Shown piece by piece: positions 13,188-35,372 of a DNA stretch of 40,736 bases. The notes under the pieces were generated by a model. That model did no database searches, was not told the origin of the DNA, and saw only the letters and a list, made by a program, of their open reading frames with translations. Position numbers and translations under genes: made by a program. Source of the stretch: a virus; IMG/VR virus record IMGVR_UViG_3300024517_000038, positions 1 through 40,736 of that record; one strand, written 5' to 3'. Numbering within the stretch: the stretch's first letter is position 1; every line of letters starts with the position of its first letter.

Positions 13188-13502
13188 TTATCGGATCCGA
13201 GCTTTCAGCGCCGCGTCATCCGCCGCCCATTCCACCCGACGCTGGGCCAATTTCTCCACCCGATCCGTCCGCATCCAAAGACCAGCTATCAACTCCCGGG
13301 TCCGTTCTCGCCTCTTGAGGGCGTCCGCCACTTCCTCAACGGTCACGCTGTCATACTCACCCGGCACGTACGGTCTGTCCAGGTCACGCAATCGCTCCCG
13401 GTCTCGCTCAGCATTGGCAAACGACCACCGCTGAGCCTGCTCCCGTCTCCCCTGCGCCTGATTGTCGCGGATTCTCCCGACCCATTCTCGCCTGTCATTC
13501 AT
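13188..13502 (-). CDS. Solitary charged helical protein, 104 aa (moron-like unit)
   Basis: I do not recognise this protein. It is almost wholly helical and very rich in Arg, Glu, Asp and Ala (NDRREWVGRIRDNQAQ, then NAERDRERLRDLDRPYVPG), with a Val-rich turn (SVTVEEVADALKRRE) and a basic end. It could be a coiled-coil or nucleic-acid-associated protein. It is alone on this strand between rightward genes, with its own good promoter (13536-13564) and terminator (13148-13175), which is the layout of a phage moron. I chose ATG 13502 over 13508 because the GGGGA Shine-Dalgarno is then properly spaced; the leader GGGGA-ATG-ACT-ATG fits the cassette seen before many rightward genes. Confidence 0.7.
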   Translation of the reverse strand: MNDRREWVGRIRDNQAQGRREQAQRWSFANAERDRERLRDLDRPYVPGEYDSVTVEEVADALKRRERTRELIAGLWMRTDRVEKLAQRRVEWAADDAALKARIR

Positions 13503-13535
13503 AGTCATTCCCCTTTATTTAAACTGTGCACCGTT

Positions 13536-13564
13536 TTTATACCACATTCTGCAAACTAAGTAAA
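13536..13564 (-). promoter_or_regulatory. Leftward sigma-70-like promoter for the solitary gene
   Basis: On the minus strand TTTACT (13564-13559), 17-bp spacer, TATAAA (13541-13536), with TGG directly before the -10 box, an extended -10 arrangement. The expected transcript start is near 13529, about 27 bases before the ATG at 13502. Confidence 0.7.
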
Positions 13565-13577
13565 CACCTATTATAAA

Positions 13578-13765
13578 ACACATGGCACACGTCTTGCTTG
13601 CCCTGCATCTATCATGCCAACTAAGATTACAAGCAATGTTCGTGCCAACATAGCCAACACACATGGCACACACCTTGCTTGTGCATGCATCATACGTGCC
13701 AACATAGCTATCATATCACACCACAACAATGCACGTGTTTTGCGTGTTTCACGTGCCAACAAAGC
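13578..13765. repeat. Iteron-like direct repeat cluster
   Basis: Two 23-bp copies (13578-13600 and 13659-13681) beginning ACACATGGCACAC and ending CTTGCTTG differ at two bases and are 81 bp apart. TGCCAAC occurs four times in the same direction (13615, 13643, 13697, 13754), the last three within CGTGCCAACA(T/A)AGC. The 23-bp copies also contain TGGCAC, the inverse of the GTGCCA core. No gene is convincing here. Iterons of this kind mark replication origins or multi-site operators. Confidence 0.7.
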
Positions 13766-13796
13766 CCCGCAGAACCACAAAACAACGCAAGTATAA

Positions 13797-13810
13797 CCGC
13801 AACACTGCGG
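13797..13810. promoter_or_regulatory. Small dyad CCGCA-ACAC-TGCGG
   Basis: A perfect 5-bp inverted repeat directly followed by TACAAT, which resembles a -10 box but lacks a -35 partner at normal spacing. It may be a protein-binding site between the iterons and the rightward promoter. Confidence 0.35.
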
Positions 13811-13840
13811 TACAATCTGCACACTAAATGTCGATTATGC

Positions 13841-13869
13841 TTGCTATCATAGTGGGCATCCCCTATAGT
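13841..13869 (+). promoter_or_regulatory. Rightward early promoter candidate
   Basis: TTGCTA (13841-13846), 17-bp spacer, TATAGT (13864-13869). The expected transcript start is near 13876, giving a leader of about 165 bases before the first rightward gene. It is the best sigma-70-like match upstream of the rightward block, so it probably drives the 14.0-22.6 kb genes. Confidence 0.6.
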
Positions 13870-14451: not shown

Positions 14452-14508
14452 TCTAACCGGCTTGTGGGCACTGTTGGCGGAATGACTTTTAACCAATGGA
14501 GAATGACA

Positions 14509-14661
14509 ATGAAAAAGCGAGCAAAACGTTTTTGGCTGGTTTCAATTGGTGATGACCTTAAATTAGAGGTCCATCAGTGGGGCAAAGTAGATCCACGGAC
14601 TGTATATCCATCTTACCGCAACAACCACGGGGCCTGTGCCCTCGTTTGGATGCCCACTTGA
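14509..14661 (+). CDS. Small basic protein, 50 aa
   Basis: An unrecognised protein with a basic start (MKKRAKRFWLVSIGDDLKL), then a mixed region rich in Tyr, Trp and Asn. The start lies in GGAGA-ATG-ACA-ATG, where the second ATG at 14509 has the right distance from GGAG. A further GGAATGAC copy lies 20 bp upstream with no good frame. The next gene starts 19 bp past the stop. Strand-like stretches FWLVSI and LEVHQW suggest a small beta-rich fold. Confidence 0.6.
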   Translation: MKKRAKRFWLVSIGDDLKLEVHQWGKVDPRTVYPSYRNNHGACALVWMPT

Positions 14662-14680
14662 GGCAATCGGGAGAATGGGC

Positions 14681-14917
14681 ATGACTGAGAAACAACTGGA
14701 CGCCATTAAGGCGCTGGCCAGTCGCTACAATAGCGACCTTGACCACACGGACGTCTTGCACGGTACCGATGACTTTGGCCCACACGGGCTACCCGCCGGA
14801 TGGGTGGAGGTCGTTGTAATGGTGCCCGGCGAACACTCCGCACAGGGAAACCCGCACAGGGAAACACGGGTGGCCGTGGTCGCTGGCGTGTCACCCGAGG
14901 GGAATGTCCATACCTAG
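14681..14917 (+). CDS. Unknown early protein, 78 aa
   Basis: The protein has a helical start (TEKQLDAIKALASRYNSDLD), an acidic His-containing linker (HTDVLHGTDDFGPHG) and a beta-rich end (WVEVVVMVPG and VAVVAGVSPEGNVHT). No family is recognised. A short tandem direct repeat (CACAGGGAAAC twice) lies inside the coding region. The start was set at ATG 14681, seven bases after GGGAG in GGAGA-ATG-GGC-ATG; the upstream ATG 14675 is too close. A terminator-like hairpin follows six bases after the stop. Confidence 0.6.
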   Translation: MTEKQLDAIKALASRYNSDLDHTDVLHGTDDFGPHGLPAGWVEVVVMVPGEHSAQGNPHRETRVAVVAGVSPEGNVHT

Positions 14918-14922
14918 AATCG

Positions 14923-14950
14923 AGCCCGTCACACTGTGGCGGGTTGCTTT
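14923..14950 (+). terminator. Terminator or attenuator inside the early block
   Basis: CCCGTCAC (14925-14932) pairs with GTGGCGGG (14936-14943), eight pairs with one G-U and a three-base loop, followed by TTGCTTT. It directly follows the 78-aa gene. The T tract is broken, so it likely attenuates rather than stops transcription, leaving the membrane microproteins and later genes at a lower level. Confidence 0.55.
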
Positions 14951-14986
14951 GTGGGAATGACCTCACGATTTGACGGGAGAATGACA

Positions 14987-15067
14987 ATGAATCCATCAGA
15001 ACTACTTTCAATTATCTATTTTGGTGCGGTGTTCACGCTGGTCTACGGATTCACGTGGGCAGTGTAG
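14987..15067 (+). CDS. Membrane microprotein, 26 aa
   Basis: MNPSELLSIIYFGAVFTLVY then GFTWAV: after five polar residues the whole peptide is hydrophobic, a single membrane-spanning segment. The start is set by GGGAGA-ATG-ACA-ATG, the same cassette as before other early genes, which is the main support that so short a frame is expressed. It is followed after two bases by another hydrophobic microprotein. It could act on the host membrane or in lysis timing or superinfection exclusion; none of this can be read from sequence. Confidence 0.5.
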   Translation: MNPSELLSIIYFGAVFTLVYGFTWAV

Positions 15068-15069
15068 TG

Positions 15070-15138
15070 ATGAACTGCGACGAAGTGATATTTACAGTGT
15101 GCTTTGTTGGCCTGTTCATAGTGACGGGCCTTTTATAG
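15070..15138 (+). CDS. Membrane microprotein, 22 aa
   Basis: MNCDEVIFTVCFVGLFIVTG then LL: a polar four-residue start and a hydrophobic remainder, enough for one membrane helix. It begins two bases after the previous stop and lacks its own strong Shine-Dalgarno (GTGATG), so it would depend on translational coupling. The next gene has a perfect AGGAGG-like site overlapping this stop. Pairing of two adjacent tiny hydrophobic peptides argues against chance, but expression is unproven. Confidence 0.4.
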   Translation: MNCDEVIFTVCFVGLFIVTGLL

Positions 15139-15146
15139 GAGGGGCG

Positions 15147-15287
15147 ATGGAAGAGCAATTAACAGGATGGCGAATGCTTGGCTACCTTATGTTCCGGTTC
15201 AATTTGAGCCTGGCGCAAGCGGTAGAGTCAATGACCCAAAACGGCCAGGACATGGCCTTTGTGTATGAACTGATAGGAGGGGAGTAA
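15147..15287 (+). CDS. Small helical protein, 46 aa
   Basis: The peptide MEEQLTGWRMLGYLMFRFNL with a following amphipathic helix (SLAQAVESMTQ) is mostly helical and has no recognised domain. The ATG at 15147 has an AGGAGGGG Shine-Dalgarno. An upstream extension to 15021 is rejected because it would cross two other small genes and lacks a ribosome site. The stop overlaps the next start (TAATGA). Confidence 0.6.
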   Translation: MEEQLTGWRMLGYLMFRFNLSLAQAVESMTQNGQDMAFVYELIGGE

Positions 15288-15547
15288 TGATTTTCACATT
15301 TACTGAGGACCCAGGACACGCATGGCTTCCGGTCAAGCGTAGCCTGTTGAAAGAATTGGGAGTCGCTAGCGACATCAGTTCCTACTCATACCAGGAGGGC
15401 GATACCGTCTGGTTAGAGGAAGACTGTGATGCTGGCGTATTCATTAGAGCTTGGAAGCAAGCCAATCCAGACCAGCATGCAAGCTACGGCTCTGAGTATG
15501 TGGAGGACACGCATATTCGGGGCCTGCAACCGTATGGGGGGGAGTGA
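15287..15547 (+). CDS. Conserved-looking small phage protein, 86 aa
   Basis: The sequence FTEDPGHAWLPVKRSLLKEL followed by GVASDISSYSYQEGDTVWLE and EDCDAGVFIRAWKQA looks like a small uncharacterised protein found in many phages and plasmids (pattern: E-D-x-G-H-x-W, then S-Y-S-Y, then E-E-D-C-D-A). I know no function for it. The acidic ED-CDA segment and His could bind metal. It is translationally coupled at both ends (TAATGA before, TGATG after), placing it in a tight four-gene group. Confidence 0.7.
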   Translation: MIFTFTEDPGHAWLPVKRSLLKELGVASDISSYSYQEGDTVWLEEDCDAGVFIRAWKQANPDQHASYGSEYVEDTHIRGLQPYGGE

Positions 15548-15903
15548 TGAAAAAGATTGAGTACAGCCAAGCTGTCAATCCAGCGCACAAGGATGCTGAA
15601 AGCATACCCGTAGCCGTTACAGGGTATGACTTCGGCGTGCCTGGCTTGGCAGTCCGTAAGGCATGGGGGTCATGGCAAATTGACCACGTGCCAAGCGGTT
15701 ACCGTGTAATCACTTACTACCATACCACTCGGAGGGAATGCGTAGGGTGTGCATTGCGAGCACAAGAGCAGGTCCCAGGCATTGACTGGACGGCCAGCAA
15801 GGAAGCGATAACAAGCGACCTCCTTGTGCTTGCCACTAGGGACTGGCGGGACGTGTTCGAGAGGGGGCATGTTTACCACACGAAACGTGAAAGCACAGCA
15901 TAA
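15547..15903 (+). CDS. Unknown early protein, 118 aa
   Basis: The protein has a strand-rich first half (VTGYDFGVPGLAVRKAWGSW, then YRVITYYHTTRR) and a helical second half. ECVGCALRAQEQV carries a CxxC pair, and a His and Arg rich patch precedes it, so metal binding is possible. The start is ATG 15547, overlapping the previous stop (TGATG), rather than GTG 15544. A 47-bp gap with two copies of GAATGACA follows before the next gene. No family recognised. Confidence 0.6.
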   Translation: MKKIEYSQAVNPAHKDAESIPVAVTGYDFGVPGLAVRKAWGSWQIDHVPSGYRVITYYHTTRRECVGCALRAQEQVPGIDWTASKEAITSDLLVLATRDWRDVFERGHVYHTKRESTA

Positions 15904-15950
15904 CGGTATGCCACGGATGGAAGGCAAAGGGAGAATGACAAGGAGGAAGA

Positions 15951-16661
15951 ATGACAAATTCCGTAAAGGCTTGGGAGGGACCAAGCGCGATTAATGGCGA
16001 GCCTATATTCTGTCTGATTACGGCTGTTGAGCGTGAAAGCAAAAACACCAAGACAGGGGACATGCTACAGGTCGCCACTATGCACGCCACAACACCGCCA
16101 CAGCAGGCTGCCAATGAGGGTCTGGATGAATCGGTGTGTGGCAATTGTAAACTGAGGCCAATCCTGAAGGACCTACGTCCCGAGGGGCTGTACTCCTGCT
16201 ACGTCAAGAAGTGGAGGATGAAGGCACTGTGGGGGTTTGTGAAGGACCGCGTGCCCATGTCGGGATTGGGCGTGAAGGAAGTGCTTACCAGTACCGACAA
16301 GGCGGTGCGCTTTGGGATGTATGGCAACATGTCGTCCATGCCTAAGCTGGTGGCTGAGTGGATGCTGCTCGCAGTCAAGAATGCAGGGAAGAAGTGGACG
16401 CTGTACGAGCATCTGTGGCGCGAAGCAAGGAACCAGTGGCTGGCTGAGTTTGCAATGGCATCGGTCGAGTCTCTGGAGGAAAAGGAGGAAGCCAAGGCAC
16501 TGGGCTGGCGCACATTCAGGCAGCTAAAGCCAGGGGAGGAAATGCAGAGTGATGAGGTGATGTGTCCCTTTGTAACCAAGGGCATCCAATGCAAGGACTG
16601 CCGACTGTGTAGCGGTAACTCCATTGGAGCCAAGAGCGTGGCGATACCAAGCCACACATAG
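15951..16661 (+). CDS. DUF7227-like cysteine-rich protein, 236 aa
   Basis: I believe this belongs to the uncharacterised DUF7227/gp88-like group of phage and plasmid proteins. Supporting features are CGNCKLR (residues 63-69) with a later GLYSCYV, a central RFGMYGNMSSMPKLV, the helix-rich TLYEHLWREARNQWLAEFAM followed by ASVES, GWRTFRQL, and a C-terminal CPFVTKGIQCKDCRLCSGN ending near a His. The two cysteine clusters suggest a zinc or iron-sulfur site. The function of the family is unknown to me. The start ATG at 15951 has GGAGGAAG upstream. Membership rests on remembered motif order and should be tested with a profile search. Confidence 0.6.
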   Translation: MTNSVKAWEGPSAINGEPIFCLITAVERESKNTKTGDMLQVATMHATTPPQQAANEGLDESVCGNCKLRPILKDLRPEGLYSCYVKKWRMKALWGFVKDRVPMSGLGVKEVLTSTDKAVRFGMYGNMSSMPKLVAEWMLLAVKNAGKKWTLYEHLWREARNQWLAEFAMASVESLEEKEEAKALGWRTFRQLKPGEEMQSDEVMCPFVTKGIQCKDCRLCSGNSIGAKSVAIPSHT

Positions 16662-16671
16662 GAGGATGATG

Positions 16672-16884
16672 ATGAGTAAACGCAAGGCCGAAGTCTTTAG
16701 GATTCCAAATGGCAGCATAACGGGTGAGCCCTATTACGCGATCAATGTGGTGGTGGATAACTTCGAGATAGAAGGAGTTACCCTTCAACTGCCGTGTGCT
16801 CAGTACGAGTGGCTAGAGATTGAGGGGTTCGACGTGGAAAGTCTACTGAAGGGGGTAACCGGGGAGGATGATGATGAGCGATGA
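16672..16884 (+). CDS. Small acidic protein, 70 aa
   Basis: The protein begins MSKRKAEVFRIPNGSITGEP and continues with strand-like YYAINVVVDNFEIEGVTLQL and an acidic end (LKGVTGEDDDER). It looks like a small beta-rich fold; no domain recognised. The start lies in GGAGG-ATG-ATG-ATG; I chose the third ATG at 16672 because it is six bases from the Shine-Dalgarno. The GEDDDE tail is encoded by the next gene's GGAGG-ATG-ATG-ATG cassette, so the protein end is shaped by that signal. Confidence 0.6.
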   Translation: MSKRKAEVFRIPNGSITGEPYYAINVVVDNFEIEGVTLQLPCAQYEWLEIEGFDVESLLKGVTGEDDDER

Positions 16885-17014
16885 AGGGATGAGAATGACT
16901 GACGAGGAAGTATTGCGAACGATGGAGCTTCTCTTGAGGTTCTGGGATGAGGGAGGGCAGGAGCTTTGCGAGGCCCTGCTCAAGGAGGATGATGATGGCA
17001 ACAGCGACAATTGA
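16874..17014 (+). CDS. Acidic microprotein, 46 aa
   Basis: MSDEGMRMTDEEVLRTMELL followed by LRFWDEGGQELCEALLKEDD: an acidic, amphipathic helical peptide without a known domain. It overlaps the previous gene by 11 bases and the next by 20. Its third ATG in GGAGG-ATG-ATG-ATG gives a proper Shine-Dalgarno distance. The strong ribosome site is the main evidence; the acidic character could suit an inhibitor or DNA mimic, but that is speculation. Confidence 0.55.
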   Translation: MSDEGMRMTDEEVLRTMELLLRFWDEGGQELCEALLKEDDDGNSDN

Positions 17015-17330
17015 GTTCACCCTCCCTCGCGATAGCTACAACTCCATCATTGAGATGGCTGGCTATGGCGTAGGGTATTGGGCCAGCTACATGGAGAGCA
17101 CCAAAAAGGGGTGCCACTTCACAGAGGAGAGGTCTGGAAACAGCTTCTTCATCACCCCCGGAGCCCTGGAGCGAGCAGTGCTCGAATTGCACGCGGAGGC
17201 ACCTCTCAACGACTACTACATGTCGGCAATCCGGGACTTAGTATCGACGGGGCTGACTGACAGTGTCGGAAGCGACATAGCAGATGCGATTGTACAGCAG
17301 GCATGCTTTGGCAAGGTTATATACGGATAG
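16995..17330 (+). CDS. Unknown early protein, 111 aa
   Basis: The N-terminus has a strand ATIEFTLPRDSY, then a helix (NSIIEMAGYG) and YWASYMESTKKG. A middle FHTEERSG-like segment (HFTEERSGNSFFITPG) is followed by two helices (ALERAVLELH and YYMSAIRDLV). It looks like an alpha/beta small domain; no family recognised. The start is the third ATG (16995) of the GGAGG-ATG-ATG-ATG cassette. A gene with the same start cassette lies before and after it. Confidence 0.6.
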   Translation: MATATIEFTLPRDSYNSIIEMAGYGVGYWASYMESTKKGCHFTEERSGNSFFITPGALERAVLELHAEAPLNDYYMSAIRDLVSTGLTDSVGSDIADAIVQQACFGKVIYG

Positions 17331-17340
17331 GAGGATGACG

Positions 17341-17556
17341 ATGAGTAACTTTTACATACTAATGGACGCCATAAGGGACGAGCGGAAAAGGAATGAAAAG
17401 AACAGAGTCTATCCAACAAGGGAAGAGACAATTCAAGCGCAGTCCATCAGAGATGGAAAGCTTTGTAAAAGGCAGCAAGGGCAGGGAATGGTGCCAATCC
17501 ATGACGGTAGCACCTGCCATGTCTGCGAACAGCTTGAGAAAGCAAGGGGAGGATGA
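17341..17556 (+). CDS. Small protein with CxxC motif, 71 aa
   Basis: A charged helical N-terminal part (LMDAIRDERKRNEKNR) precedes a compact end with KLCKRQQGQGMVPIH and CHVCEQLEKA. The Cys, His and CxxC arrangement suggests a single zinc site. Start ATG 17341 lies in GGAGG-ATG-ACG-ATG, seven bases after the Shine-Dalgarno. The stop overlaps the next gene's start cassette. No domain recognised. Confidence 0.6.
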   Translation: MSNFYILMDAIRDERKRNEKNRVYPTREETIQAQSIRDGKLCKRQQGQGMVPIHDGSTCHVCEQLEKARGG

Positions 17557-17558
17557 TG

Positions 17559-17762
17559 ATGGGACAACTAGCAACGAGTAAGTACGACCAGTGGCTGGAC
17601 GCGCCACTGCCGAAACGGTTCTGGTGTGAGGGTTGCCGTAAGGAAACCGACCACGCCGGTACTGATGAAGGCCTGTGTGTTGATTGCAATACATGGCGCA
17701 ACGTCGAAAGAGTAGAGCAGGCAAGGCAGGAATTACAATCAATGAAAAGGGAGGGGAAGTGA
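17559..17762 (+). CDS. Zinc-ribbon-like small protein, 67 aa
   Basis: The core has FWCEGCRKETDHAGTDEGLC followed by VDCNTW, two CxxC pairs separated by about 13 residues, which is a zinc ribbon arrangement. A helical tail follows (VERVEQARQELQSMKREG). Such proteins often bind nucleic acid or host RNA polymerase in phages, but no direct evidence exists here. The start is the third ATG (17559) of GGAGG-ATG-ATG-ATG. The stop overlaps the next start (TGATG). Confidence 0.65.
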   Translation: MGQLATSKYDQWLDAPLPKRFWCEGCRKETDHAGTDEGLCVDCNTWRNVERVEQARQELQSMKREGK

Positions 17763-18088
17763 TGACAGTACATCTATCGGATGTGAATATTTTTGATGTG
17801 TCTAAGATGGTGGTCAAGAAGATGGATGACGGGTACAGGGTCGAGCTATGGGACGACAGCTTCATCCCAACATCCACCGTCAACGTTTACCGAGACCTCC
17901 AGAGCGATAAGCAGGTCGAACTGGTGACCGAGGAGGCCAACGCTCAACTGATAGCAGCGGCACCAACGATGCTCAAGGTGTTGGAGGACTTTGCGACAGC
18001 CAGACCGGAGGACTTGGCCACAATGATGATGGTGCGGCTAAACGCCATGAACATCATCGCCATGCTGAAGGGAGCAGGGGATGAGTGA
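17762..18088 (+). CDS. Phage protein with ANAxLIAAAP motif, 108 aa
   Basis: The central EEANAQLIAAAPTMLKVLED closely matches a short helix-turn motif (ANAxLIAAAPxLL) that recurs at the ends of many phage early proteins of unknown function. An N-terminal strand-rich region (YRVELWDDSFIPTSTV) precedes it and a Met-rich helix ends the protein. The function of the motif is not known to me. ATG 17762 overlaps the previous stop (TGATG) after GAGGGGAAG; the stop overlaps the next small gene by eight bases. Confidence 0.7.
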   Translation: MTVHLSDVNIFDVSKMVVKKMDDGYRVELWDDSFIPTSTVNVYRDLQSDKQVELVTEEANAQLIAAAPTMLKVLEDFATARPEDLATMMMVRLNAMNIIAMLKGAGDE

Positions 18089-18188
18089 GGAGGACTATGC
18101 TGCATCTGTGACAATCATTGCCGTGATATTCGCGGCCTTGTTTTTAATTGGATACTGCACCGGCTCGGTGTCGCATATCCACCAATAG
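18081..18188 (+). CDS. Membrane microprotein, 35 aa
   Basis: MSEEDYAASVTIIAVIFAAL followed by FLIGYCTGSVSHIHQ: an acidic N-terminus, a 17-residue hydrophobic helix (residues 9-25) and a short polar tail with two His. It is a probable single-pass protein. GGGAGCAGGGG precedes the ATG and the frame overlaps the previous gene by eight bases. The next gene starts with the GGAGA-ATG-ACT-ATG cassette ten bases later. It is the third tiny membrane protein in this block. Confidence 0.55.
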   Translation: MSEEDYAASVTIIAVIFAALFLIGYCTGSVSHIHQ

Positions 18189-18198
18189 GAGAATGACT

Positions 18199-18393
18199 AT
18201 GACTTTGATGCAAGAGGTAGGGCTGGTGCTGGATTGCGTATTAAAAATCCACGCCGAGGCCGATAAAGCAAAAATAATTATACAACACATCAAGGAAAAG
18301 TACGAGTGCGAAGCATGCTACGGGTCAGGGAGGAACTCCCCAATATCTGACGATGCCTGCATGGGATGCAGTGGTAGTGGCGTCCAGAATTAA
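18199..18393 (+). CDS. DnaJ-type CxxCxGxG small protein, 64 aa
   Basis: A helical N-terminal half (VGLVLDCVLKIHAEADKAKI) is followed by two zinc-finger repeats of the DnaJ central type: CEACYGSG and, 16 residues later, CMGCSGSG. The two repeats together could bind one zinc ion, as in the cysteine-rich domain of DnaJ. DnaJ has four such repeats; stand-alone proteins with two are common in phages. The start at 18199 is the second ATG of GGAGA-ATG-ACT-ATG. Confidence 0.65.
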   Translation: MTLMQEVGLVLDCVLKIHAEADKAKIIIQHIKEKYECEACYGSGRNSPISDDACMGCSGSGVQN

Positions 18394-18798: not shown

Positions 18799-18919
18799 CC
18801 TGTCGTATGACGGACTGACTAAATACGAAAGAGAGGAGCGGGAGCCGCGAGTTCGACTGGGTCTGTGGTTGGCCCGATTATACGAGGCGGAGCCTGATGA
18901 GTTATGGGAGATACAATAA
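18695..18919 (+). CDS. Second HTH (XRE-like) regulator, 74 aa
   Basis: A compact Cro/CI-type domain: TPLAVLREAKGLSREAVAAM (helices 1-2), a Gly-containing turn, LSYDGLTKYEREEREPRVRL (recognition helix and turn), and LARLYEAEPDELWEI. At 74 aa it is the DNA-binding domain alone, like Cro. An AGGAGG site lies seven bases before ATG 18695. It overlaps the upstream HTH gene and the downstream nuclease gene by 16 bases. The pair resembles two opposing switch proteins, but no lysogeny genes are present to support that. Confidence 0.75.
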   Translation: MSRRLETDTPLAVLREAKGLSREAVAAMAQEAGYSLSYDGLTKYEREEREPRVRLGLWLARLYEAEPDELWEIQ

Positions 18920-19854
18920 ATAAGGTACTCACACAGAGTTCAATCGGTGCAGTGCAAGCCTGTGCCTTCCGGTACAACCTCAAATATAATGAGGGTCTAG
19001 CGCCGTTAGACAAGGCTGTTCACCTGCACATTGGATCTGTATTTCACCTGGGTGTGGAGTGCTTCCGAAAGAGGCAAAGCATCGGCAAGGTGGAGGACTT
19101 CCGAGAGTTGGAGCAGGCACTGGATGACATGGGCGGTGACGCCGCTTGCATCACAAGAGCCATGCTCATCGCGTACTTTGAGAGGTACCAGGATGATAGC
19201 TGGGAGTTTGTTTCTGTGGAGAAGAAGTGGGAGACTGGCCCCCATCCCCTGGGCTTCAACATGCAGGGAGTTGTGGATGCTCTGGTGGATGACGGCAATG
19301 ACGGAGTGCTTCTGGTGGAGACCAAGACCACCGCTCGGCTGGATGGTTCATATCTGGAGGGGCTGTGGTCAAGGCGACAGACACTGGTCTATGACATGGC
19401 GATGAGAACGCTGGGCTACAGCGTCTCTGGTATTGTGTATGACATTGTCCAGAAGCCCTCGATTCGCAGGCTCAAGGCAACGCCAGAGGCGAAGCGTAAG
19501 TACAAGAAAGATGGTGAGCTTATCGCACGGCACAGGGCTGTGGATGAGAGCGATGAGGAGTACATGGTGCGCCTGAGCGCATGGTATGAGGACCACCCGG
19601 AGTCTTTCCATAGGGAGCCGGTGCTCCACACCCAGTCGCAACTGGACGATATGGCCAGGGACGTCCTCGGGGTGATGAGTCTCATCAACCACTACGCAGA
19701 GCAGAACTTCTGGCCTCGGTCTTTGACGTCTTGCTATGCGTACAACAGGGCATGTGAGTTTGTTCCGTACTGTCAGAGTGGGCGCAACCCACTGGTCAGG
19801 GAATCACATTATCGGGTGGACGAAATCCATCCAGAACTGAAGGAGAAAGAATGA
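18904..19854 (+). CDS. Cas4/RecB-like PD-(D/E)XK nuclease with Fe-S cysteines
   Basis: A 316-aa nuclease. GSVFHLGVE near residue 48 carries the first His motif, GVVDALV gives D125, and LLVETKTT gives E139 and K141, which is the PD-(D/E)XK core. Cys20 (VQAC) and the C-terminal CYAYNRACEFVPYC (C277, C284, C290) form the N- plus C-terminal four-cysteine pattern of Cas4 and AddB iron-sulfur nucleases. Such phage proteins likely process DNA ends for recombination. It is coupled by ATGA to the ATPase gene that follows. It is not linked to any CRISPR array here. Confidence 0.85.
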   Translation: MGDTINKVLTQSSIGAVQACAFRYNLKYNEGLAPLDKAVHLHIGSVFHLGVECFRKRQSIGKVEDFRELEQALDDMGGDAACITRAMLIAYFERYQDDSWEFVSVEKKWETGPHPLGFNMQGVVDALVDDGNDGVLLVETKTTARLDGSYLEGLWSRRQTLVYDMAMRTLGYSVSGIVYDIVQKPSIRRLKATPEAKRKYKKDGELIARHRAVDESDEEYMVRLSAWYEDHPESFHREPVLHTQSQLDDMARDVLGVMSLINHYAEQNFWPRSLTSCYAYNRACEFVPYCQSGRNPLVRESHYRVDEIHPELKEKE

Positions 19855-20513
19855 CAACACCAACGCTAAATGAATGCATCACGACTGTCAGCGGTCGGCC
19901 TAAGATTGGCAAGTCCACCTTTGCAAGTGGGTTTCCCAACGCAGTGTTCGCTGCGACCGAGGCTGGCCTGAACTTTTTGGATGTGACGGAGGTCCAGGTT
20001 CGAGAATGGCCGGCGTTCAAGGCGCTCATCGATGAGCTTACCCGCACGCCTGGGCTTGTGGAGACCCTGGTGATTGACACCTTGGATAACCTGCACATGA
20101 TGTGCGAGGAGCATGTGTGCCAAGCCAATGGCATCTCCCATCCGTCTGACCTGTCGTATGGCAAGGGATTTACCATGGTCAAAAACCAGTTCCGGCTGGC
20201 GCTGACCAAGGCATCCATGCTCAAGACCAAGGGCGGCAACCGTGTCGGTCTGGTCATGATAAGCCACGCCAAGGAGGTGGAGGTGGAGAGTCGTACCGGT
20301 AAGTCGGTTTGCTGGAGCTTGTCTCTGCCGAACTCGGCTCGCCAGGTCGTAGAAGCGATGAGTGACCTTCTATTGTTTGCGGACATTGAGGGTGACACGC
20401 GGGTTCTCAGAACGAAACCGCATCGTAACTGGGTAGCGGGGGACCGCAGTGGCAAGCTGCCTGAAACTATTGAATTGTCTTATGACGTGCTCAAGAAGCA
20501 CTTGGAGGGATAG
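19851..20513 (+). CDS. Sak4-like RecA-fold ATPase (recombination)
   Basis: A 220-aa ATPase. Walker A is GRPKIGKST (residues 15-23) and Walker B is TLVIDTLDNL (about 72-80, D76). A later GLVMISHAKEVEVES fits the sensor or DNA-binding region of Sak4-like, single-domain RecA relatives. These act as single-strand annealing or exchange helpers in phages. The ATGA overlap with the Cas4-like gene and the following ssDNA-binding gene forms a three-gene recombination set. No C-terminal extension for oligomerisation is evident. Confidence 0.75.
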   Translation: MTTPTLNECITTVSGRPKIGKSTFASGFPNAVFAATEAGLNFLDVTEVQVREWPAFKALIDELTRTPGLVETLVIDTLDNLHMMCEEHVCQANGISHPSDLSYGKGFTMVKNQFRLALTKASMLKTKGGNRVGLVMISHAKEVEVESRTGKSVCWSLSLPNSARQVVEAMSDLLLFADIEGDTRVLRTKPHRNWVAGDRSGKLPETIELSYDVLKKHLEG

Positions 20514-20515
20514 AG

Positions 20516-20965
20516 ATGAGTGACATTGATTTCACACAGGCCGACAACCTTTGGAAGGATAGCGCAGGGGAGTCGCCCGGCGGACAGAAGACCTACGATG
20601 ATACGCCAGTGCCTGACGGTGTGTACCAGGCCCATGTAAACCGGGTCGAGTGGCGTGTATCGAAGGCCGGCAACCCGTACCTGTTCTGGGTATTGACTAT
20701 CGGCGATGGGGCGCACGCTGGGCGCTCTCTCTTGAAGCGCAACATGCTTCAGACCGAGAAGAACGTGCAGTTCCTCAAGCAAGACCTAGCGGTGTGCCAG
20801 GTTCAGATGCCGGAGGCCATCAGTCAATTGGACCTGAACTTTCTGCTGGACAAGCGACTTCGCGTGAAGAAGCAGACCAGTGGCGACTTTGAGAATGTGT
20901 ATCTTGACCAGTGTCTTGGTGATGCTGTGCCGAGCCCAACCTATAACGATTCGGGGATGTTCTAA
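20516..20965 (+). CDS. ssDNA-binding-like protein (DUF669-type)
   Basis: A 149-aa protein with the pattern of phage DUF669 proteins: PVPDGVYQAHVNRVEWRVS (residues 30-50), KAGNPYLFWVLTIGDGAHAG, and LLDKRLRVKKQTSGDFENVY, which fit an OB-like beta-barrel. Proteins of this type occur beside Sak4 and Cas4-like genes and are considered single-strand DNA binding. The acidic start (SDIDFTQAD) is less typical than the acidic tail of classical SSB. It begins three bases after the ATPase stop, with GAGG overlap. Confidence 0.7.
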   Translation: MSDIDFTQADNLWKDSAGESPGGQKTYDDTPVPDGVYQAHVNRVEWRVSKAGNPYLFWVLTIGDGAHAGRSLLKRNMLQTEKNVQFLKQDLAVCQVQMPEAISQLDLNFLLDKRLRVKKQTSGDFENVYLDQCLGDAVPSPTYNDSGMF

Positions 20966-28142: not shown

Positions 28143-31100
28143 CTATCTCCTTGGTGGAATAAAATCAGTCCGCACTGGCTTCCGTTCAGGCGGGGGTGGC
28201 CATTCTGTTTTACCACTTTCCGGCCCTGGAGAAAACTTTTCTGCGGCCTTCTTGAGGTCAGCCGCCGCCTCCTCCTCCAGTCGCCTGAGTTTTTCTGGGT
28301 CGGTTGTCTTGGCTCGGATGTACTTGTTCCACTCATCGGCATCTTCCCGCATCATGGACAATAGCCTGACTGCCCTTTTCTTGAAGGGCTTCGCCCCCAT
28401 GCTAGAGGTGAGCAAGTCTTCCAGCATGCGGCGGATGATAAGATGCTTCTCAGATGAGCTGCCAAGGCCCATTATATCTGCCTGGTATTGCGCCAAAAGC
28501 TTTCTCATTCGGTCGTGCTCTATCTGCTCAACAACTTCCCTTAGCTTCTTGCCGGACCCCTCGTTGGTTGCCTCTAGCATGTCTGCAACCTCGTCAAACC
28601 CCATTGTCCGGAGACCCGCTTCCTTTGTCTTCTTCCGCCAGTACTGCGTCATTCCCTTGGTGTCATCGGCAACAATCAGGAGGAGTTGTCTCGTTCGGAT
28701 CCTGAATTTGTCCTCTGTTGTGTGAGTGTCTGTCCTTTGGCCCGTGTACCTTTGCAGATACCGGTCTTTGTACGGACGCCCGAGCCAGTCCGCCTCGCCG
28801 CTATCTACCCGCGCATAGTCCTCGATCATGTTGCCGACAATCCCGAGGTGATCTCTGACGAACGTCCACCCGAACTCCTTTATCTGGCTCCAACTGGAAT
28901 CATCAACGGTGGATGTGGGGTCCAGGGCAAGCTTGCCTGTGGTCGGGTCCTGTCCGCCGAGCGCCATGTACAGATACTTTATCGGCCAACCCTGCGGAGC
29001 CATGAAGAACTGAGCCCAGTCCGCCGCCGTCTCTCGCTCCCCAGGCTTTGTGGGGGAAACGAACTCGGACCCCGGCGTCATCCATCGGACGTTGGGGAAC
29101 GTGCCCTTCAGCGGAACGGTGTCCAATATCCTCTTGCGAATCCGCTCCGCCTTACCGCCACTAAGGCCAGTTAGGGCCTCAAAGGCATCCTTGTTTCCAA
29201 TCTGCTTGAACGTCAACCAGACTCCCGTTTGCCTTACCTTTCGCTCTCCGCCATAGGCCGGGCGCTCCCCAGTCAACCCCTCCGGGTCGAACCCAGGGGC
29301 AGTCTGGACATGGAACTCCGCCTCCCCAGCGCTATTGAGGCGCACCTTGCGGCCAGCAACCTCCTTTGGTGGGCGGTATGTCTTCCGTCCAATCCTGACA
29401 GGATCCCGCCCACCCAGCAGCAACTCCTTGTCCACAGACAGGTCCCGAGGGAAGGCACGCACGAGCCGATTGTACTTTGTATTGACATCAAGGATGGAGC
29501 CAAACCGATCCATGTCCAGCCCGACGCCCTCTGAAAACGCCTCCGTAAGCGCATCCATGCCCTGCGTCGCAAGGGATGAGAGTATCGGATTCCGCCATGT
29601 CATCTCAATGGTTTGCGGGATTGACCATGCCATAAACTTCATGAACTGGTTGGGCGATACCAGGCCCAGGGCCTTTGATACGCCAGCCGTCAGGCCAGGA
29701 ACGTGCATTGGCGTGGAAAACATATCCGTGAACCGGGGCGTTTCGTAATTTCCGAACTGGTCGATGGACTTGTTGGCAAACTCCTGGAAAAGAGTCGTCG
29801 TCCCGGTGAGATCCCCGAACTTCCGAGTCTCCTTGTTGTAAAGCTCCAACCGCAGGGTGTCAGGGTTCTTCTTCAGCCAGCCCTCCTGCTCTAGATACCG
29901 GAGGAACCTCACATACTTAAACGATGAGTCCATCCACCCATACAGCATTCCCGGGTAGTCCTGGAAAAGCTGCTTGAACGCGCCGGCACGCCCCGCTCGC
30001 TTCTTGATGAACTTGTTGCCAATCGATGCCTCCAGCAGTGCATGCAAGAGCCCCTCGCCATTCTGGAAGATGCCCCGCATGGCCATCCCCTGGGCCTCCA
30101 CAAGGCCCTCGACGTTGGCGAAGTTGCTCTTGAATATCCCCGTCTTGTACGCTGCCTCGTACAGCGGGCCTTTCTTTGCAACCGCCGTATCGCGAAGCAT
30201 CACCTCATAGAGCTTCCACCTTGCCGGGTTCATTGGGTTGATGTCACCATATGGCGCAAACACCAGGACGTTATAAAGCCAGTTTCTCGCTGTAACCCCA
30301 GGGTGCCGGATGGTGAAATTGCCCTTCATGAAGCGCACGTATCCAGCAAGCCAATCCTTTGAAGCCGCCTGGATTGCCTCCGTCCACTGGATGTCCCAGT
30401 AGACATCCTCCAGCACATGCTTGTTGGCGAGGTCTGCAAATCGCCTTTGCTTCGACTCAATCTTGACGAAGTCCTTGGTCTCCCAGTACGCCTTCCCACT
30501 CGCATCCACCTCCTTCGTCCATTTGGCGAGATTTGCGGGCTCTTTGTGAACTCGCCTTTTCCCAAGGTATTCAAACAGAGCCTTGTTCGGCATCTTTTTG
30601 TAGCCTGGAGCGGGGGTCGATCTAACAATCACCCTTGGCTTCATCCATGGCGGCGCACCTTGCGGCAAGAAGGACTGGTCAGTTAGTTTGTTGATTTTGT
30701 TGTACGTCTTCATCGCCTCGACAGAGTTCTTTATCGAGGTAAAGCCGCCATAGACTTCCTTGTTCAGGTCGGCTATCTGCCCGTAGTACTTGATTCGCTT
30801 CTCTATGGGCACGTTCTCTTGGCGCAGCTTGTTTGTCAGCGAACGAACCGTGGTGTTCCTCTTCCCTTCAAGCTCTCGGAAGGCCTTTGCGACGTAGTCT
30901 GCGGCAGCCTCCGCCTCCTTTCTCGTCTCTGGCTTGCTTTTGTTGTGCTTTTTCCTGAACCACGTCTCTAGATTTCCCTTGATTTCAAAGATGGACGGCC
31001 AGTACCACTGCATTGCAGTGTTTGGGTTGTCAACAATCCCAAGCTCGTGGGCCTCCTTGATGACCTCGTGCATCCGGCGGCTCAGTGGTCTGCCGTATTC

Positions 31101-34100
31101 GTTTGCGAACTTTATCTGGTCCTGGATGTCCTTGAATCTCTTCTTGTCCGTTACCTGGAGGAACTCCTTTAGCTCTGGATCTATCTCCCATGCCCCGCGC
31201 TTCCCGTCCTTGGTCAGCTTGTCCGGGTTGTACCTGTACACGTCGATCCGGCCATTGCGAGAGTTGGCAAGGCGAGTCTCCAGCCGCCCAATCATCCCAG
31301 ATATTGCCGGGGCGCTCTTTACCCGGGCCCCGAGGTCGCCTCCGAGCATCGCTCCGCCCGGCTTCCCGTATGGTGGCAGGGCTCTGCCTCCCTTCATCTG
31401 CTGTATTTGTGTGGCATTGAGCGAGTGAATGAGCCTGAGATCGTCCCATGTGAATGAGGTGTTTCTGTACTCCGTCTTGAAGTGCTGGCTCAATCTGGGC
31501 CGAACATCGTATGACTTACCTCCCCATTCCACGGTCTTCGGGAGGTCCTTCATGAGGGAATCCACTTCCCACTCATATGCCCACTTGTTCTGCTTGCCCT
31601 CCTCGATGATGGCCTGAACGGTCGCCGGAAGAAGCTTTCGTGGGGACCTGACCACGGACCGCATGTACCCAAGGCCAGGGGCATCTCTTATGAAGCGGTT
31701 GTACAGAATCCCTGTCATCTCAAATGCAGACCATGGGGTCGCTATTGGCATGAGCTTGGATGCCGACAGGAGTGCCCGGGGGAGGTCTGTGTGAATCTTG
31801 TTGACCAAGACCTGGAAGTCCTTCGGGAGGTTCTTCCAGCGGTCCACCATCCACTTCCTTCCCCACTGTCCAACCTCATGGACCGGCTCCCTGAGCCATC
31901 GCACCATCTTAACCGGGTCGTTACCCGCCATGAAGCGGTACGGCCCCTCTCTCATTGTGCGAGGAACGTCGAGGGTATTTCTCCCATACCGAAGATGCTC
32001 GATGTCGTATCGGGCAGTCTCCCGGACCCAGTACTCCCTACCCACCTCGTTCGTTGACTTAACCCAGCCAGGCTGGCGCGCGGGCGGCTCCGCAAAGCGA
32101 ACCTCTGCGCCCCACGCCGGCTGGCCCGCTCGTCTGGCACCGCCGATCGGCTCAGTGACGCGCTCAACAAATCCCCGCTCTGCCACCGACAGTACCCCCG
32201 CCCCCTCCGGCACTGTCTGTGCGCTGGTCTTGGGCCGGATTGGCTCCAGCGTTTCGCCCACAAGTCGCGACCTCACTGCAGGGGCAGGGGCTGTGGGGGG
32301 TGCCTCGGCCCGAACGACGGGTTCGGCGGCAGCGCGGTACTTCCCCTCGGCTGCCATAAGGTTTGTCTCAGCGGCCTGCCCCACATCATGCACTGGCCGC
32401 TCACCGCGAACCACGAGCCTCTCGATTGCCTTCTCCCTTAGCAGGGCAGCCTTCGTCTCTAAGGCGCGGAGGTCCTTCTGGAGCTTGGCGAGGATGCGCC
32501 TTTCACGGCGAGCGAATCCCTTGGACCGCATCACCTTGGCCTGGTTGTTCGCTACGGCCCGCCTCTTTGCCTCTATAGCGTCACGAAGCGCCGGCCAGTC
32601 CTTGTGCTTGGCTAGCTCCGCAAACTCCTGGTCTAAAATCGATCGAGTCTCACGGTGTTTGACCGCAGCCTCTACCTGCTTATAAGCCTCCGCAACCTCA
32701 AGAAGCTCTGGCGGGGCACCGGCCCCCTCCTCCATCTTACTCAGCGCCCTCATCTCCTCGATGACTGCCCGGTCAACAGTGGCCTTCTTGTACCCCTTCC
32801 TGGCCTTGAGACCCTTGACGACTGGCTTCACCGTCATGCCAAAGATGAGCGCAGCGGCAACTGGGTCATGCGGGATGGCCACCCTTGGGTCCATCAGGAC
32901 GCCGTAGCCGATGTGGCCAATGGCTCCATACATGTCGCCAAGCGTCTGGCCGAGGACTTTTGACTTCTCGTACGCATGCTCTGGCTTGCCGGTTCCATAC
33001 GCGCCCTGCCACGCCATCGTCGCCAGCCCGGAGATTAGGTGCCACCCGCTTTCCGGAGTGTTCTTGACGGTCTCCAGGAGGGCTTCGCCCAGGCTCAGGT
33101 CAGACTTGGAGCCGCCGGTAAGCTCGATCATCGTTGGGTCAAAGCCATACAGGTCGTAAGCAGCGCCGAACTGAACATCGTGCGGAAGTCCCCCGCGCCA
33201 ATACTTTGCTTGCGACCCGCTAAGAGGCAACCCGGCCCGCATAATGACTTCCGATTCCGTCAGGGACGGGAGGAACTGAACGGCCCATCTGCCAAAGTTC
33301 GCCATCCAGTGCGGGCTCTGCTCTCTCGGGTCATAGTGGCGAGCGCCGTGGCGCTTTCTCAGCAGGTCACCCTCCTCGTCGCCCTCCACGCCCCGGCCAT
33401 AATCTGAAAGGGTAGTCCCAGCACCCAAGACTGCGGCCCCTGGGTTGTAGGTGAGCATTAGCTCGTGGTACAGGCTCTCTGCTGGGTGGAGGGCCCCGGC
33501 AACCCGATACCCACCGTCCATCTGGGCTTCGACCATCTCGCCGCGAGTTACCCTCCCGAACGGGTTCATCGGGTGGAGACCCAGTATCACTTCCTCTGGC
33601 GGAAGGTTGCCGCCCCTCTTCGATAGATAGAAGTCCGCATCATGCGGGGTTAGCCAGACCTCATGGTTCCCTGGGGCAGTTACCGTTATGCCGAGTATCG
33701 GCAGGTAGTATTCGGTATCTCCCTTCACTTGAACGCTTTTCGCGTATTTCAACTCCTTACCTGGCCGGACATTCATCAGGACATCGCCTGGCCCCTCCTC
33801 CTCCTGGAGGATGCTCATCTCGGCTGCCTCTATCTGGCGGTCGAACTCCCGGAGGCGGCCCATTGCGTAGGGGTTGTCTGGGAAGCCCTTCAACTCCTCC
33901 GTCTGTAGCTCGGGCGGGCGGGGCGGCGCGGCGTATTCAGTGGGTGGAACGCCCGCCAGGTCGCCTACGGCATGCGCAGTGAATATCGTCCTCCCCTCAG
34001 TGGACAGCGGGTTTTTGATATACTCTGCCCTGGCGGCCACTAGCTCATCGAGCTTGGCCTGAAGGCCCTGTACCCTGCCCTCTTTCTTGTGTTGCTCTGG

Positions 34101-35372
34101 GAGTGACAGGCGGATGCCTGTGTCTTTGTCAAACACCCACTTGACGTCCGGGTGAACCTGTGCCTCGCTTGTGAGGGCGGTTGGGGTGATCTCCTCTGTC
34201 ATTACCTTTGGCCCGAAAGTCGTCTGGGCCGTCCACTCCCTCACCTTGAGCGGAGCACCAATCTCAGGGCCAACATCTGTACTCAACTCCAGTTCGTCCG
34301 GGATAAACTTCGGCGGGGTGGCTACCCGGTACTCGTCTACATCGGTGTTGGGGAACTTCTGAATTTTCCCTTCGGCGTCACGTACCGGGACTACGACCCT
34401 CGCCGCGTGTTTTCTGCCTGGCATCCCGTGGACAGACACGCCGAATGTATTGGTGAGCATGTCCGTGTATTTTTGCCGGTAACTCAGGGTGATGGTCCGC
34501 TTCTTCTCGCGATACAGGTCCCACGGAAACGGCTTCCTCTCCCAGCGCCACTTCTCCAACTCACCCAGCTTGTCCCGAAACTCCTGCATCAGGGCTCCTG
34601 GATTGTTCCCGGCAGCTTTCCATCGCAGGTCACTGAATAGCTTCTCGATTTCCCTCCCACTCTCACCTGTCCTTGTCGGTGGGCTCTTGATATCCGATAT
34701 GGCCTTTGAGCGGGCTGCCTTTACTGAGGCATCCCTATACTCACTGCGGCTCATTTTGCCTCGATCTCTATCGACGATCTGACCGACCTCGCGCATGGAT
34801 AGCCCGCCCTGGACCCCGCCATCCGCATCAAATGGCCAGCCTGCGCTTCGCGCTGACTTATCCGGAGGGCCCGCCCCGCCCGACTCCTCCACCCACCTGG
34901 GGATCTGGTCCCCTGCCCACTTCACGGCTTTCCTTATCCCCAGCCTTAGTGGAGACTCCGGGACTTTGTAGTCAGTGGTGCCCTCAAGTGACGGCTCGCC
35001 GTATGTCCACGCCGGAGGCTTGGCTGGAGGGGGCATCTCGCCAGGAAGGTGCTGGGTTGGATCTATCGCCTTGGCAGCCGCCTTGGCTGACTCAGGGGCA
35101 AGTGGCAGCAATCCGCCGCCCGGCTTAAACTGCCCCGCAGCCGCAAGGATGTCTTTGCTTGTTGCCGCAGGCAGGCCCCTCCCGCTGCGCTTTTGCCTCT
35201 CGGTGGGCGGCGGCTTGCCCATCCAGAGCGCCCTCCAGGTCGGGTTCGTGAAAAGGTCTGCGGCCTTCTCGACGTCTCCTGTGCCCGCCACGGGGGTGGG
35301 AGTTGCCTCCGGGGGCTGATTCTTTGACCCCCACTCGAACTCATCCCACCAGGATTTGCCGTTATCTGGCAT
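28143..35372 (-). CDS. Giant virion protein, 2409 aa, probable DNA-ejection protein
   Basis: The largest gene, about 18% of the genome. The N-terminal 200 residues are Pro/Gly-rich and variable; residues about 870-985 form coiled coils rich in Lys and Glu (ILAKLQKDLRALETKAALLR is one segment). The rest is mainly helical with charged segments, and a hydrophobic patch near residue 1690 (IRHPGVTARNWLYNVLVFAP) could contact membranes. No protease, transglycosylase or kinase motif is seen. Its size and its place after the 493-aa and 753-aa genes and before the lysis genes suggest an internal core or ejection protein as in podoviruses (T7 gp16 or P22 gp16 in role). No sequence family is recognised. 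Confidence 0.6.
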   Translation of the reverse strand: MPDNGKSWWDEFEWGSKNQPPEATPTPVAGTGDVEKAADLFTNPTWRALWMGKPPPTERQKRSGRGLPAATSKDILAAAGQFKPGGGLLPLAPESAKAAAKAIDPTQHLPGEMPPPAKPPAWTYGEPSLEGTTDYKVPESPLRLGIRKAVKWAGDQIPRWVEESGGAGPPDKSARSAGWPFDADGGVQGGLSMREVGQIVDRDRGKMSRSEYRDASVKAARSKAISDIKSPPTRTGESGREIEKLFSDLRWKAAGNNPGALMQEFRDKLGELEKWRWERKPFPWDLYREKKRTITLSYRQKYTDMLTNTFGVSVHGMPGRKHAARVVVPVRDAEGKIQKFPNTDVDEYRVATPPKFIPDELELSTDVGPEIGAPLKVREWTAQTTFGPKVMTEEITPTALTSEAQVHPDVKWVFDKDTGIRLSLPEQHKKEGRVQGLQAKLDELVAARAEYIKNPLSTEGRTIFTAHAVGDLAGVPPTEYAAPPRPPELQTEELKGFPDNPYAMGRLREFDRQIEAAEMSILQEEEGPGDVLMNVRPGKELKYAKSVQVKGDTEYYLPILGITVTAPGNHEVWLTPHDADFYLSKRGGNLPPEEVILGLHPMNPFGRVTRGEMVEAQMDGGYRVAGALHPAESLYHELMLTYNPGAAVLGAGTTLSDYGRGVEGDEEGDLLRKRHGARHYDPREQSPHWMANFGRWAVQFLPSLTESEVIMRAGLPLSGSQAKYWRGGLPHDVQFGAAYDLYGFDPTMIELTGGSKSDLSLGEALLETVKNTPESGWHLISGLATMAWQGAYGTGKPEHAYEKSKVLGQTLGDMYGAIGHIGYGVLMDPRVAIPHDPVAAALIFGMTVKPVVKGLKARKGYKKATVDRAVIEEMRALSKMEEGAGAPPELLEVAEAYKQVEAAVKHRETRSILDQEFAELAKHKDWPALRDAIEAKRRAVANNQAKVMRSKGFARRERRILAKLQKDLRALETKAALLREKAIERLVVRGERPVHDVGQAAETNLMAAEGKYRAAAEPVVRAEAPPTAPAPAVRSRLVGETLEPIRPKTSAQTVPEGAGVLSVAERGFVERVTEPIGGARRAGQPAWGAEVRFAEPPARQPGWVKSTNEVGREYWVRETARYDIEHLRYGRNTLDVPRTMREGPYRFMAGNDPVKMVRWLREPVHEVGQWGRKWMVDRWKNLPKDFQVLVNKIHTDLPRALLSASKLMPIATPWSAFEMTGILYNRFIRDAPGLGYMRSVVRSPRKLLPATVQAIIEEGKQNKWAYEWEVDSLMKDLPKTVEWGGKSYDVRPRLSQHFKTEYRNTSFTWDDLRLIHSLNATQIQQMKGGRALPPYGKPGGAMLGGDLGARVKSAPAISGMIGRLETRLANSRNGRIDVYRYNPDKLTKDGKRGAWEIDPELKEFLQVTDKKRFKDIQDQIKFANEYGRPLSRRMHEVIKEAHELGIVDNPNTAMQWYWPSIFEIKGNLETWFRKKHNKSKPETRKEAEAAADYVAKAFRELEGKRNTTVRSLTNKLRQENVPIEKRIKYYGQIADLNKEVYGGFTSIKNSVEAMKTYNKINKLTDQSFLPQGAPPWMKPRVIVRSTPAPGYKKMPNKALFEYLGKRRVHKEPANLAKWTKEVDASGKAYWETKDFVKIESKQRRFADLANKHVLEDVYWDIQWTEAIQAASKDWLAGYVRFMKGNFTIRHPGVTARNWLYNVLVFAPYGDINPMNPARWKLYEVMLRDTAVAKKGPLYEAAYKTGIFKSNFANVEGLVEAQGMAMRGIFQNGEGLLHALLEASIGNKFIKKRAGRAGAFKQLFQDYPGMLYGWMDSSFKYVRFLRYLEQEGWLKKNPDTLRLELYNKETRKFGDLTGTTTLFQEFANKSIDQFGNYETPRFTDMFSTPMHVPGLTAGVSKALGLVSPNQFMKFMAWSIPQTIEMTWRNPILSSLATQGMDALTEAFSEGVGLDMDRFGSILDVNTKYNRLVRAFPRDLSVDKELLLGGRDPVRIGRKTYRPPKEVAGRKVRLNSAGEAEFHVQTAPGFDPEGLTGERPAYGGERKVRQTGVWLTFKQIGNKDAFEALTGLSGGKAERIRKRILDTVPLKGTFPNVRWMTPGSEFVSPTKPGERETAADWAQFFMAPQGWPIKYLYMALGGQDPTTGKLALDPTSTVDDSSWSQIKEFGWTFVRDHLGIVGNMIEDYARVDSGEADWLGRPYKDRYLQRYTGQRTDTHTTEDKFRIRTRQLLLIVADDTKGMTQYWRKKTKEAGLRTMGFDEVADMLEATNEGSGKKLREVVEQIEHDRMRKLLAQYQADIMGLGSSSEKHLIIRRMLEDLLTSSMGAKPFKKRAVRLLSMMREDADEWNKYIRAKTTDPEKLRRLEEEAAADLKKAAEKFSPGPESGKTEWPPPPERKPVRTDFIPPRR

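Follow-up and report, generated by a model that had tools for sequence, protein, structure and literature searches.

Repeated regulatory elements are held to mediate modular shuffling in T4-type phages (cited in PMC4503421); these mobile regulatory cassettes, the PeSLs, are reportedly promoter plus stem-loop elements of intergenic regions. Short conserved motifs are also known from the cluster K mycobacteriophages (the start-associated sequences SAS and ESAS) and from the cluster EF Microbacterium phages, where they occupy the position of the ribosome-binding site (RBS) before genes of different families, in many copies and mostly in one orientation (PMC3203893; PMC7302621); about half of the cluster K SAS copies are linked upstream to 17-bp imperfect inverted repeats (PMC3203893). 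In the cluster O mycobacteriophages a 17-bp repeat flanks a gene (Corndog gene 14) and is single in relatives (PMC4351075), and for the lambdoid phages short conserved boundary sequences have been proposed as border homologies that let general recombination exchange modules, although they are reported not to be identifiable at most mosaic borders (PMC3029335). Here we describe a repeated translation leader in the IMG/VR virus record IMGVR_UViG_3300024517_000038, an uncultured tailed phage of which the complete stretch of 40,736 nucleotides (the window) was analysed. Homogenised functional ribosome-binding leaders, copied before many small early genes, probably act in this phage as short boundary sequences for gene exchange.

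The leader, or cassette, consists of a Shine–Dalgarno (SD) sequence, an ATG, one spacer codon and a further ATG. The pattern GGAGRATGNNNATG is matched exactly nine times in the window, always on the plus strand and between 14.5 and 18.2 kb (14498–18201), and every one of the nine ends with the ATG that starts an open reading frame (ORF). A preliminary description of this DNA had proposed a cassette shared by these nine plus-strand starts, and the comparison with shuffled sequence that it suggested bears this out: dinucleotide shuffles contain 0.10 matches on average and 2 at most, so that 9 was never reached. There is no further exact match in the whole 40,736-base record, and a reversed-pattern control gave none. 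The consensus is GGAGRATGAYNATG; the spacer codon is ATG in four copies, ACA in two and ACT, ACG and GGC in the others, which is more than the two forms initially distinguished. A supposed tenth copy at 13502 on the minus strand is a near copy with one mismatch in the SD (GGGGA, not GGAGR). The additional copies listed at 14480, 14953 and 15932 are present but partial (GGAATGAC; GGAGAATGACAAGG), and the leader of the primase gene (GGAGAATGACGCCATG; 25403, minus strand) is a relative of the cassette whose first ATG lies out of frame.

14498–14511, plus strand: cassette GGAGAATGACAATG before gene B (14509–14661); same in L009, ACT spacer in L021 and L061
14670–14683, plus strand: cassette GGAGAATGGGCATG before gene C (14681–14917), a gene seen only in the window
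14976–14989, plus strand: cassette GGAGAATGACAATG before gene D (14987–15067, 26-aa membrane protein)
16661–16674, plus strand: cassette GGAGGATGATGATG before gene I (16672–16884); left-hand repeat of unit I-J, which L009 lacks
16863–16876, plus strand: cassette GGAGGATGATGATG before gene J (16874–17014); left end of the L021 homology block, ORF I reads through
16984–16997, plus strand: cassette GGAGGATGATGATG before gene K (16995–17330); serves as right repeat for unit I-J and as left repeat for unit K-L, ORF J reads through
17330–17343, plus strand: cassette GGAGGATGACGATG before gene L (17341–17556); left-hand repeat of unit L, which L009 lacks
17548–17561, plus strand: cassette GGAGGATGATGATG before gene M (17559–17762); right repeat of the L and K-L units
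18188–18201, plus strand: cassette GGAGAATGACTATG before gene P (18199–18393); two-ATG register not kept in L009 and L021
13500–13513, minus strand: near copy GGGGAATGACTATG (one mismatch) before the gene at 13188–13508
15930–15957, plus strand: partial copy GGAGAATGACAAGGAGGAAGAATGACA at the start of gene H (15951–16661)

This excess exceeds what follows from genes simply having an SD, as a stricter null model indicates. With the leader background taken from an unselected survey and not from loci picked for the cassette, each SD leader kept its GGAG while all other leader positions were permuted over 1000 rounds; the biggest family of near-identical leaders counts 6 members in the window, whereas the permuted sets average 1.8 and never exceed 4 (0/1000). 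The nine proteins encoded behind the cassettes have no similarity to one another (best E 0.34), and the element is therefore a repeated leader and not a set of paralogues. The clustering of the copies in one operon would suit a local tandem duplication of gene plus leader, after which the coding parts diverged; however, the proteins are dissimilar, and genes H and K each have their own distant homologues in other phages, H belonging to PHROG 2554 (function unknown) with homologues of about 33–35% identity in many unrelated phages (of Mycobacterium, Klebsiella, Gordonia and Roseobacter). The cassette genes were rejected as paralogues for this lack of protein similarity, and we regard such a duplication history as very improbable. 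Exact TAGGAGGATGATGATG is rare, occurring in 22 IMG/VR contigs as a single copy in each, so that the multiplicity appears to be a trait of this clade.

A search of GenBank phages yielded no similar DNA, and bacterial genomes searched for relatives gave none. Three close relatives came from IMG/VR: L009 (a 13-kb contig, with more of it in L028), L021 (18.7 kb; the whole is L027) and L061 (27 kb); scans by Sak4, helix–turn–helix (HTH), gene M, gene K and terminase found usable early regions only in these three. When the window is aligned pairwise with each of them, blocks of homology start and stop on leaders. The gene order H-I-J-K-L-M of the window is H-K-M in L009 and H′-J-M in L021, and each shortened junction carries one leader where the window has two: the H-K join is a single AGGAGGATGACGATG against two copies flanking I-J, the K-M join a single GGAGGATGACGATG against two flanking L, and the J-M join a single GGGAGGATGATGATGG against two flanking K-L. 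Gene E likewise lies between two copies of ATAGGAGG in the window, with one ATAGGAGG and no gene E in L021, and an extra L021 gene before B is flanked by TTGGAGGATAACATGAAAA and CTGGAGAATGACTATGGAAAA, against a single TGGAGAATGACTATGAAAA in L061.

16672–16983, plus strand: unit I-J, absent in L009; 15-bp overlap, H and K joined by one cassette
17341–17547, plus strand: unit L, absent in L009; 14-bp overlap, K and M joined by one cassette
16995–17547, plus strand: unit K-L, absent in L021; 16-bp overlap, J and M joined by one cassette
15136–15143, plus strand: ATAGGAGG, left repeat of the gene E unit (15147–15287)
15274–15281, plus strand: ATAGGAGG, right repeat of the gene E unit

A uniform scan yielded five clean presence/absence events with single-copy overlaps of 15, 14, 16, 19 and 8 bp. 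All five have an SD leader as a direct repeat at both ends and a single copy where the gene is missing, the repeat being a tandem-ATG cassette in three, the related TGGAGAATGACTATGAAAA in one and ATAGGAGG in one; in each, 8–19 bp of homology at both ends of the segment are single in the genomes without it, as would be expected of boundary sequences. The comparison shows whole-gene units gained or lost exactly between leader copies, with joins that leave the downstream gene translatable. Other rearrangements involve the leaders as well. Gene H is swapped in L021 and L061 for an unrelated gene H′ behind a common leader and first codons (the shared core at the H start being AATGACA-AGGAGGAAGAATGAC), and genes E and G are reversed in order in L061, each block beginning at its SD. 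The leader of gene D in L009, L021 and L061 is a different one (GAGGTG...), and these genomes lack gene C together with the cassette before D, which suggests that cassettes can arrive with a gene. Of the initial proposal of a mobile signal, a link between the leader and gene mobility is supported: synteny breaks between relatives coincide with it.

The position of stop codons points the same way. The cassette is open in one frame, in which GAG GAT GAT GAT encodes Glu-Asp-Asp-Asp (EDDD), and ORFs I and J, without a stop codon ahead of the cassette, run through it and terminate within the next gene. Protein J thus ends in two ways: ...KEDDDGNSDN in the window, where K follows, and ...REDDDGTTTK in L021, where M follows; an end that depends on the following gene is as expected for joins made inside the leader. 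Genes H, K and O stop with a TAG placed directly on the SD (TAGGAG), that of H ending on the first G of the gene I cassette, while the TGA of gene L lies within the gene M cassette.

The tandem ATG itself had been taken for a possible selected translation signal. Ribosome-binding sites usually have a spacing of 6 nt between SD and start codon, and this is the spacing of the last ATG, which is therefore the likely start codon; the first ATG abuts GGAGR without any spacing. One could suppose that the whole of GGAGRATGAYNATG is selected for the tuning of initiation, the upstream AUG serving as a loading or standby site or the leader being bound by a phage factor, in line with a proposal made for the cluster K SAS, and the excess over chance, the position and orientation before starts, and the retention of GGAGRATGAC before genes B and P in the relatives all fit this account. 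At gene P, however, where the window has GGAGAATGACTATG and the relatives GGAGGATGACCAATG and GGAGAGGATGACGAATG, that retained stretch has lost the ATG-NNN-ATG frame in both relatives. Gene D in three relatives and gene K in L058, an unrelated 72-kb phage contig (49% identity; leader GGAGGTGAGTGATG), manage without the cassette, and the difference at K implies that the leader goes with the genome rather than with the gene. Other starts within the same operon carry different spacers. L009 retains only three cassettes and has a second repeated leader, GGAGGRGTGATG, whose five copies (L028 7443–8744, the L009 contig) stand before genes missing from the window, with the upstream TGA stop overlapping the start (TGATG). 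A bulged pairing of GGAGG-A-TGAT with the 16S tail was also considered. A translation signal alone would also leave the coincidence with synteny breaks and read-through ORFs unexplained, and we consider it an unlikely explanation. Because the register at P is lost and the leaders at D and K differ, the tandem ATG is most readily understood as a by-product of one spacer having been copied, and not as a conserved initiation device. As to a promoter role of the leader, promoter-like sites between 13.4 and 18.5 kb are at chance level with none at a cassette; terminator-like sites in the same region number 9 against 4.1 in shuffles, again with none at a cassette.

A different account would need no special role for the leader. 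If ordinary SD sites were combined with illegitimate recombination, breaks would be random, only those at gene boundaries would survive selection, and similar leaders would be convergent solutions to the need for a good RBS; for most mycobacteriophage mosaics this explanation is the preferred one (PMC3029335). Convergence, however, requires only an SD and a start, yet the spacer is shared too, and the core leaders of the same genome do not converge: among 35 genes outside the region (595 pairs) at most 9 bases are common in the SD register and no pair reaches 10, whereas 14% of the leader pairs of the variable region share at least 10. The 14–19 bp repeats are moreover longer than most of the overlaps in cluster K1, where distinct simple gene indels of four mycobacteriophages overlap by 3–7 bp and one by 18 bp, none at an SD leader, once apparent SAS-bounded indels are set aside as pairings of paralogous or repeated ESAS and not clean events. 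The numbers in both controls are small and serve as a contrast to which no probability is attached. Random breakage with convergent leaders seems to us decidedly improbable.

The preferred reading, exchange at homogenised leaders, can be put as a sequence of steps. An ordinary RBS leader (SD, 6-nt spacer, start) would have been copied in front of many small early genes, leaving near-identical leaders of 8–19 bp at neighbouring junctions. Whole genes would then be added or removed when two leaders recombine, or when a leader recombines with an incoming leader-ended fragment, and the near-identity of adjoining leaders would allow this without harm to the translation of the gene that follows. We infer that the pairing of leaders causes the exchange, and that the exonuclease, Sak4-like and SSB-like genes next to the operon probably help to promote it.

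18904–19854, plus strand: PD-(D/E)XK exonuclease gene (Pfam PF12705, E 1.1e-16; PHROG exonuclease, E 7e-29)
19851–20513, plus strand: gene for a Sak4-like single-stranded DNA-annealing protein (PHROG 124, E 1.1e-39; AAA_24, E 6.7e-37)
20516–20965, plus strand: gene for a single-stranded DNA-binding protein (DUF669/phage SSB), a weak match (E about 5e-6 to 5e-8)

Several points weigh against this reading. The sample is four genomes, all metagenome contigs, with five clean events, and the differences at gene C (window) and gene X (L009 and L021) are less clean, one end lying within a neighbouring gene. At such compact junctions a viable event involving a gene unit must break near the SD, so that breaks close to leaders would be expected from selection by itself; what argues beyond it is only how long the shared repeats are, together with the read-through ORFs. 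One cluster K1 indel has an 18-bp overlap as well, some of the small genes (J, K) show weak codon-position bias, and cause and effect could be reversed, with insertion copying the leader. Repeats of 14–19 bp are also short beside the minimum of about 30 bp for Red-beta recombination (PMC3945230). Phage Rad52-like recombinases do recombine short, diverged sequences, and a relaxed fidelity of Rad51-type proteins such as Sak4 has been called an open question (PMC3945230).

Compared with the systems described at the outset, the window leader resembles the SAS of clusters K and EF in standing at the RBS position of many non-homologous genes, in one orientation and in multiple copies. The preliminary likening to the cluster K SAS therefore applies to position, orientation and multiplicity but not to sequence, since the 13-bp SAS consensus GGGATAGGAGCCC (in cluster EF, GGGAAAGGACCCC) is unrelated to GGAGRATGAYNATG. 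Among the window leaders no linked inverted repeats and no common upstream element were seen, although no dedicated search for inverted repeats was made; the direct repeats do not extend upstream beyond the SD or the 3 nt in front of it. A window copy also spans both SD and start codon and sits on the ends of gene indels, whereas none of the simple cluster K1 indels examined coincides with an SAS. The junction repeat of cluster O is the closest mechanistic precedent, but the 17-bp repeat found genome-wide in cluster O is a palindrome without a tie to starts, whereas the window repeat is itself the RBS leader and returns at one junction after another. Unlike most mosaic borders considered in the lambdoid proposal, the borders of single small genes in the window have an identifiable sequence. 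In contrast to the PeSLs the element is a 14-nt translation leader and not a promoter with a stem-loop. In the present case the start leader appears to be the exchange border, which joins the ideas of start-associated and boundary sequences.

The cassettes sit in a plus-strand operon of very small genes, which continues into two HTH genes and then the exonuclease, Sak4-like and SSB-like genes. The phage is identified by its portal (PHROG 156; 24% identical to the Arthrobacter phage Jasmine-type portals) and primase, and a terminase is assigned by position and conservation. A 2409-aa protein (28143–35372, minus strand) has no PHROG match. The intergenic region 13560–13860 between the divergent operons contains repeated CATGGCACAC and GTGCCAACATAG words, with a similar arrangement in L021 and L061, and is a possible origin or operator region. 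At a gene junction after D2 in L061 (1272–1464, minus strand) lies a tRNA-Met-like sequence whose anticodon loop is interrupted by 99 inserted nt; ARAGORN detects it only with introns allowed, and Rfam gave no convincing match.

Repeated leaders in other phages indicate that the phenomenon may be general. L058 contains, between 3315 and 14687, 13 leaders of the form GAGGCAAC-(0–2 nt)-ATG before diverse genes (0.03 expected), a different start leader that is more uniform still than the one in the window, and further repeated leaders are AAGGAGTACGACATG (five copies in L019), GGAGATGAGACCATG in L011, four in T7 and three in TM4. L019 also has direct repeats of 47–74 nt before several genes (at 4622, 5632, 5908 and 8906), which are perhaps promoter plus RBS modules. 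A broader view, which we put forward tentatively as a possibility, is that RBS leaders are interchangeable adaptors in an integrase-free gene-cassette system: each lineage would homogenise one or a few leaders (GGAGRATGAYNATG and GGAGGRGTGATG here, GAGGCAAC-ATG in L058, AAGGAGTACGACATG in L019), and phage recombinases would exploit this homology to gain, lose and rearrange single accessory genes that can be translated at once.

How phages swap single genes without breaking their neighbours has been debated, with random breaks followed by selection on one side and short common borders on the other. In the window the common border is visible in the sequence itself as a translation start signal, so that an incoming gene brings the ribosome site of the next one. 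If this is general, repeated start-associated sequences would be explained as traces of gene traffic, and a simple sequence test, the identity of the leaders at both ends of a variable gene, could be run on existing phage genomes.

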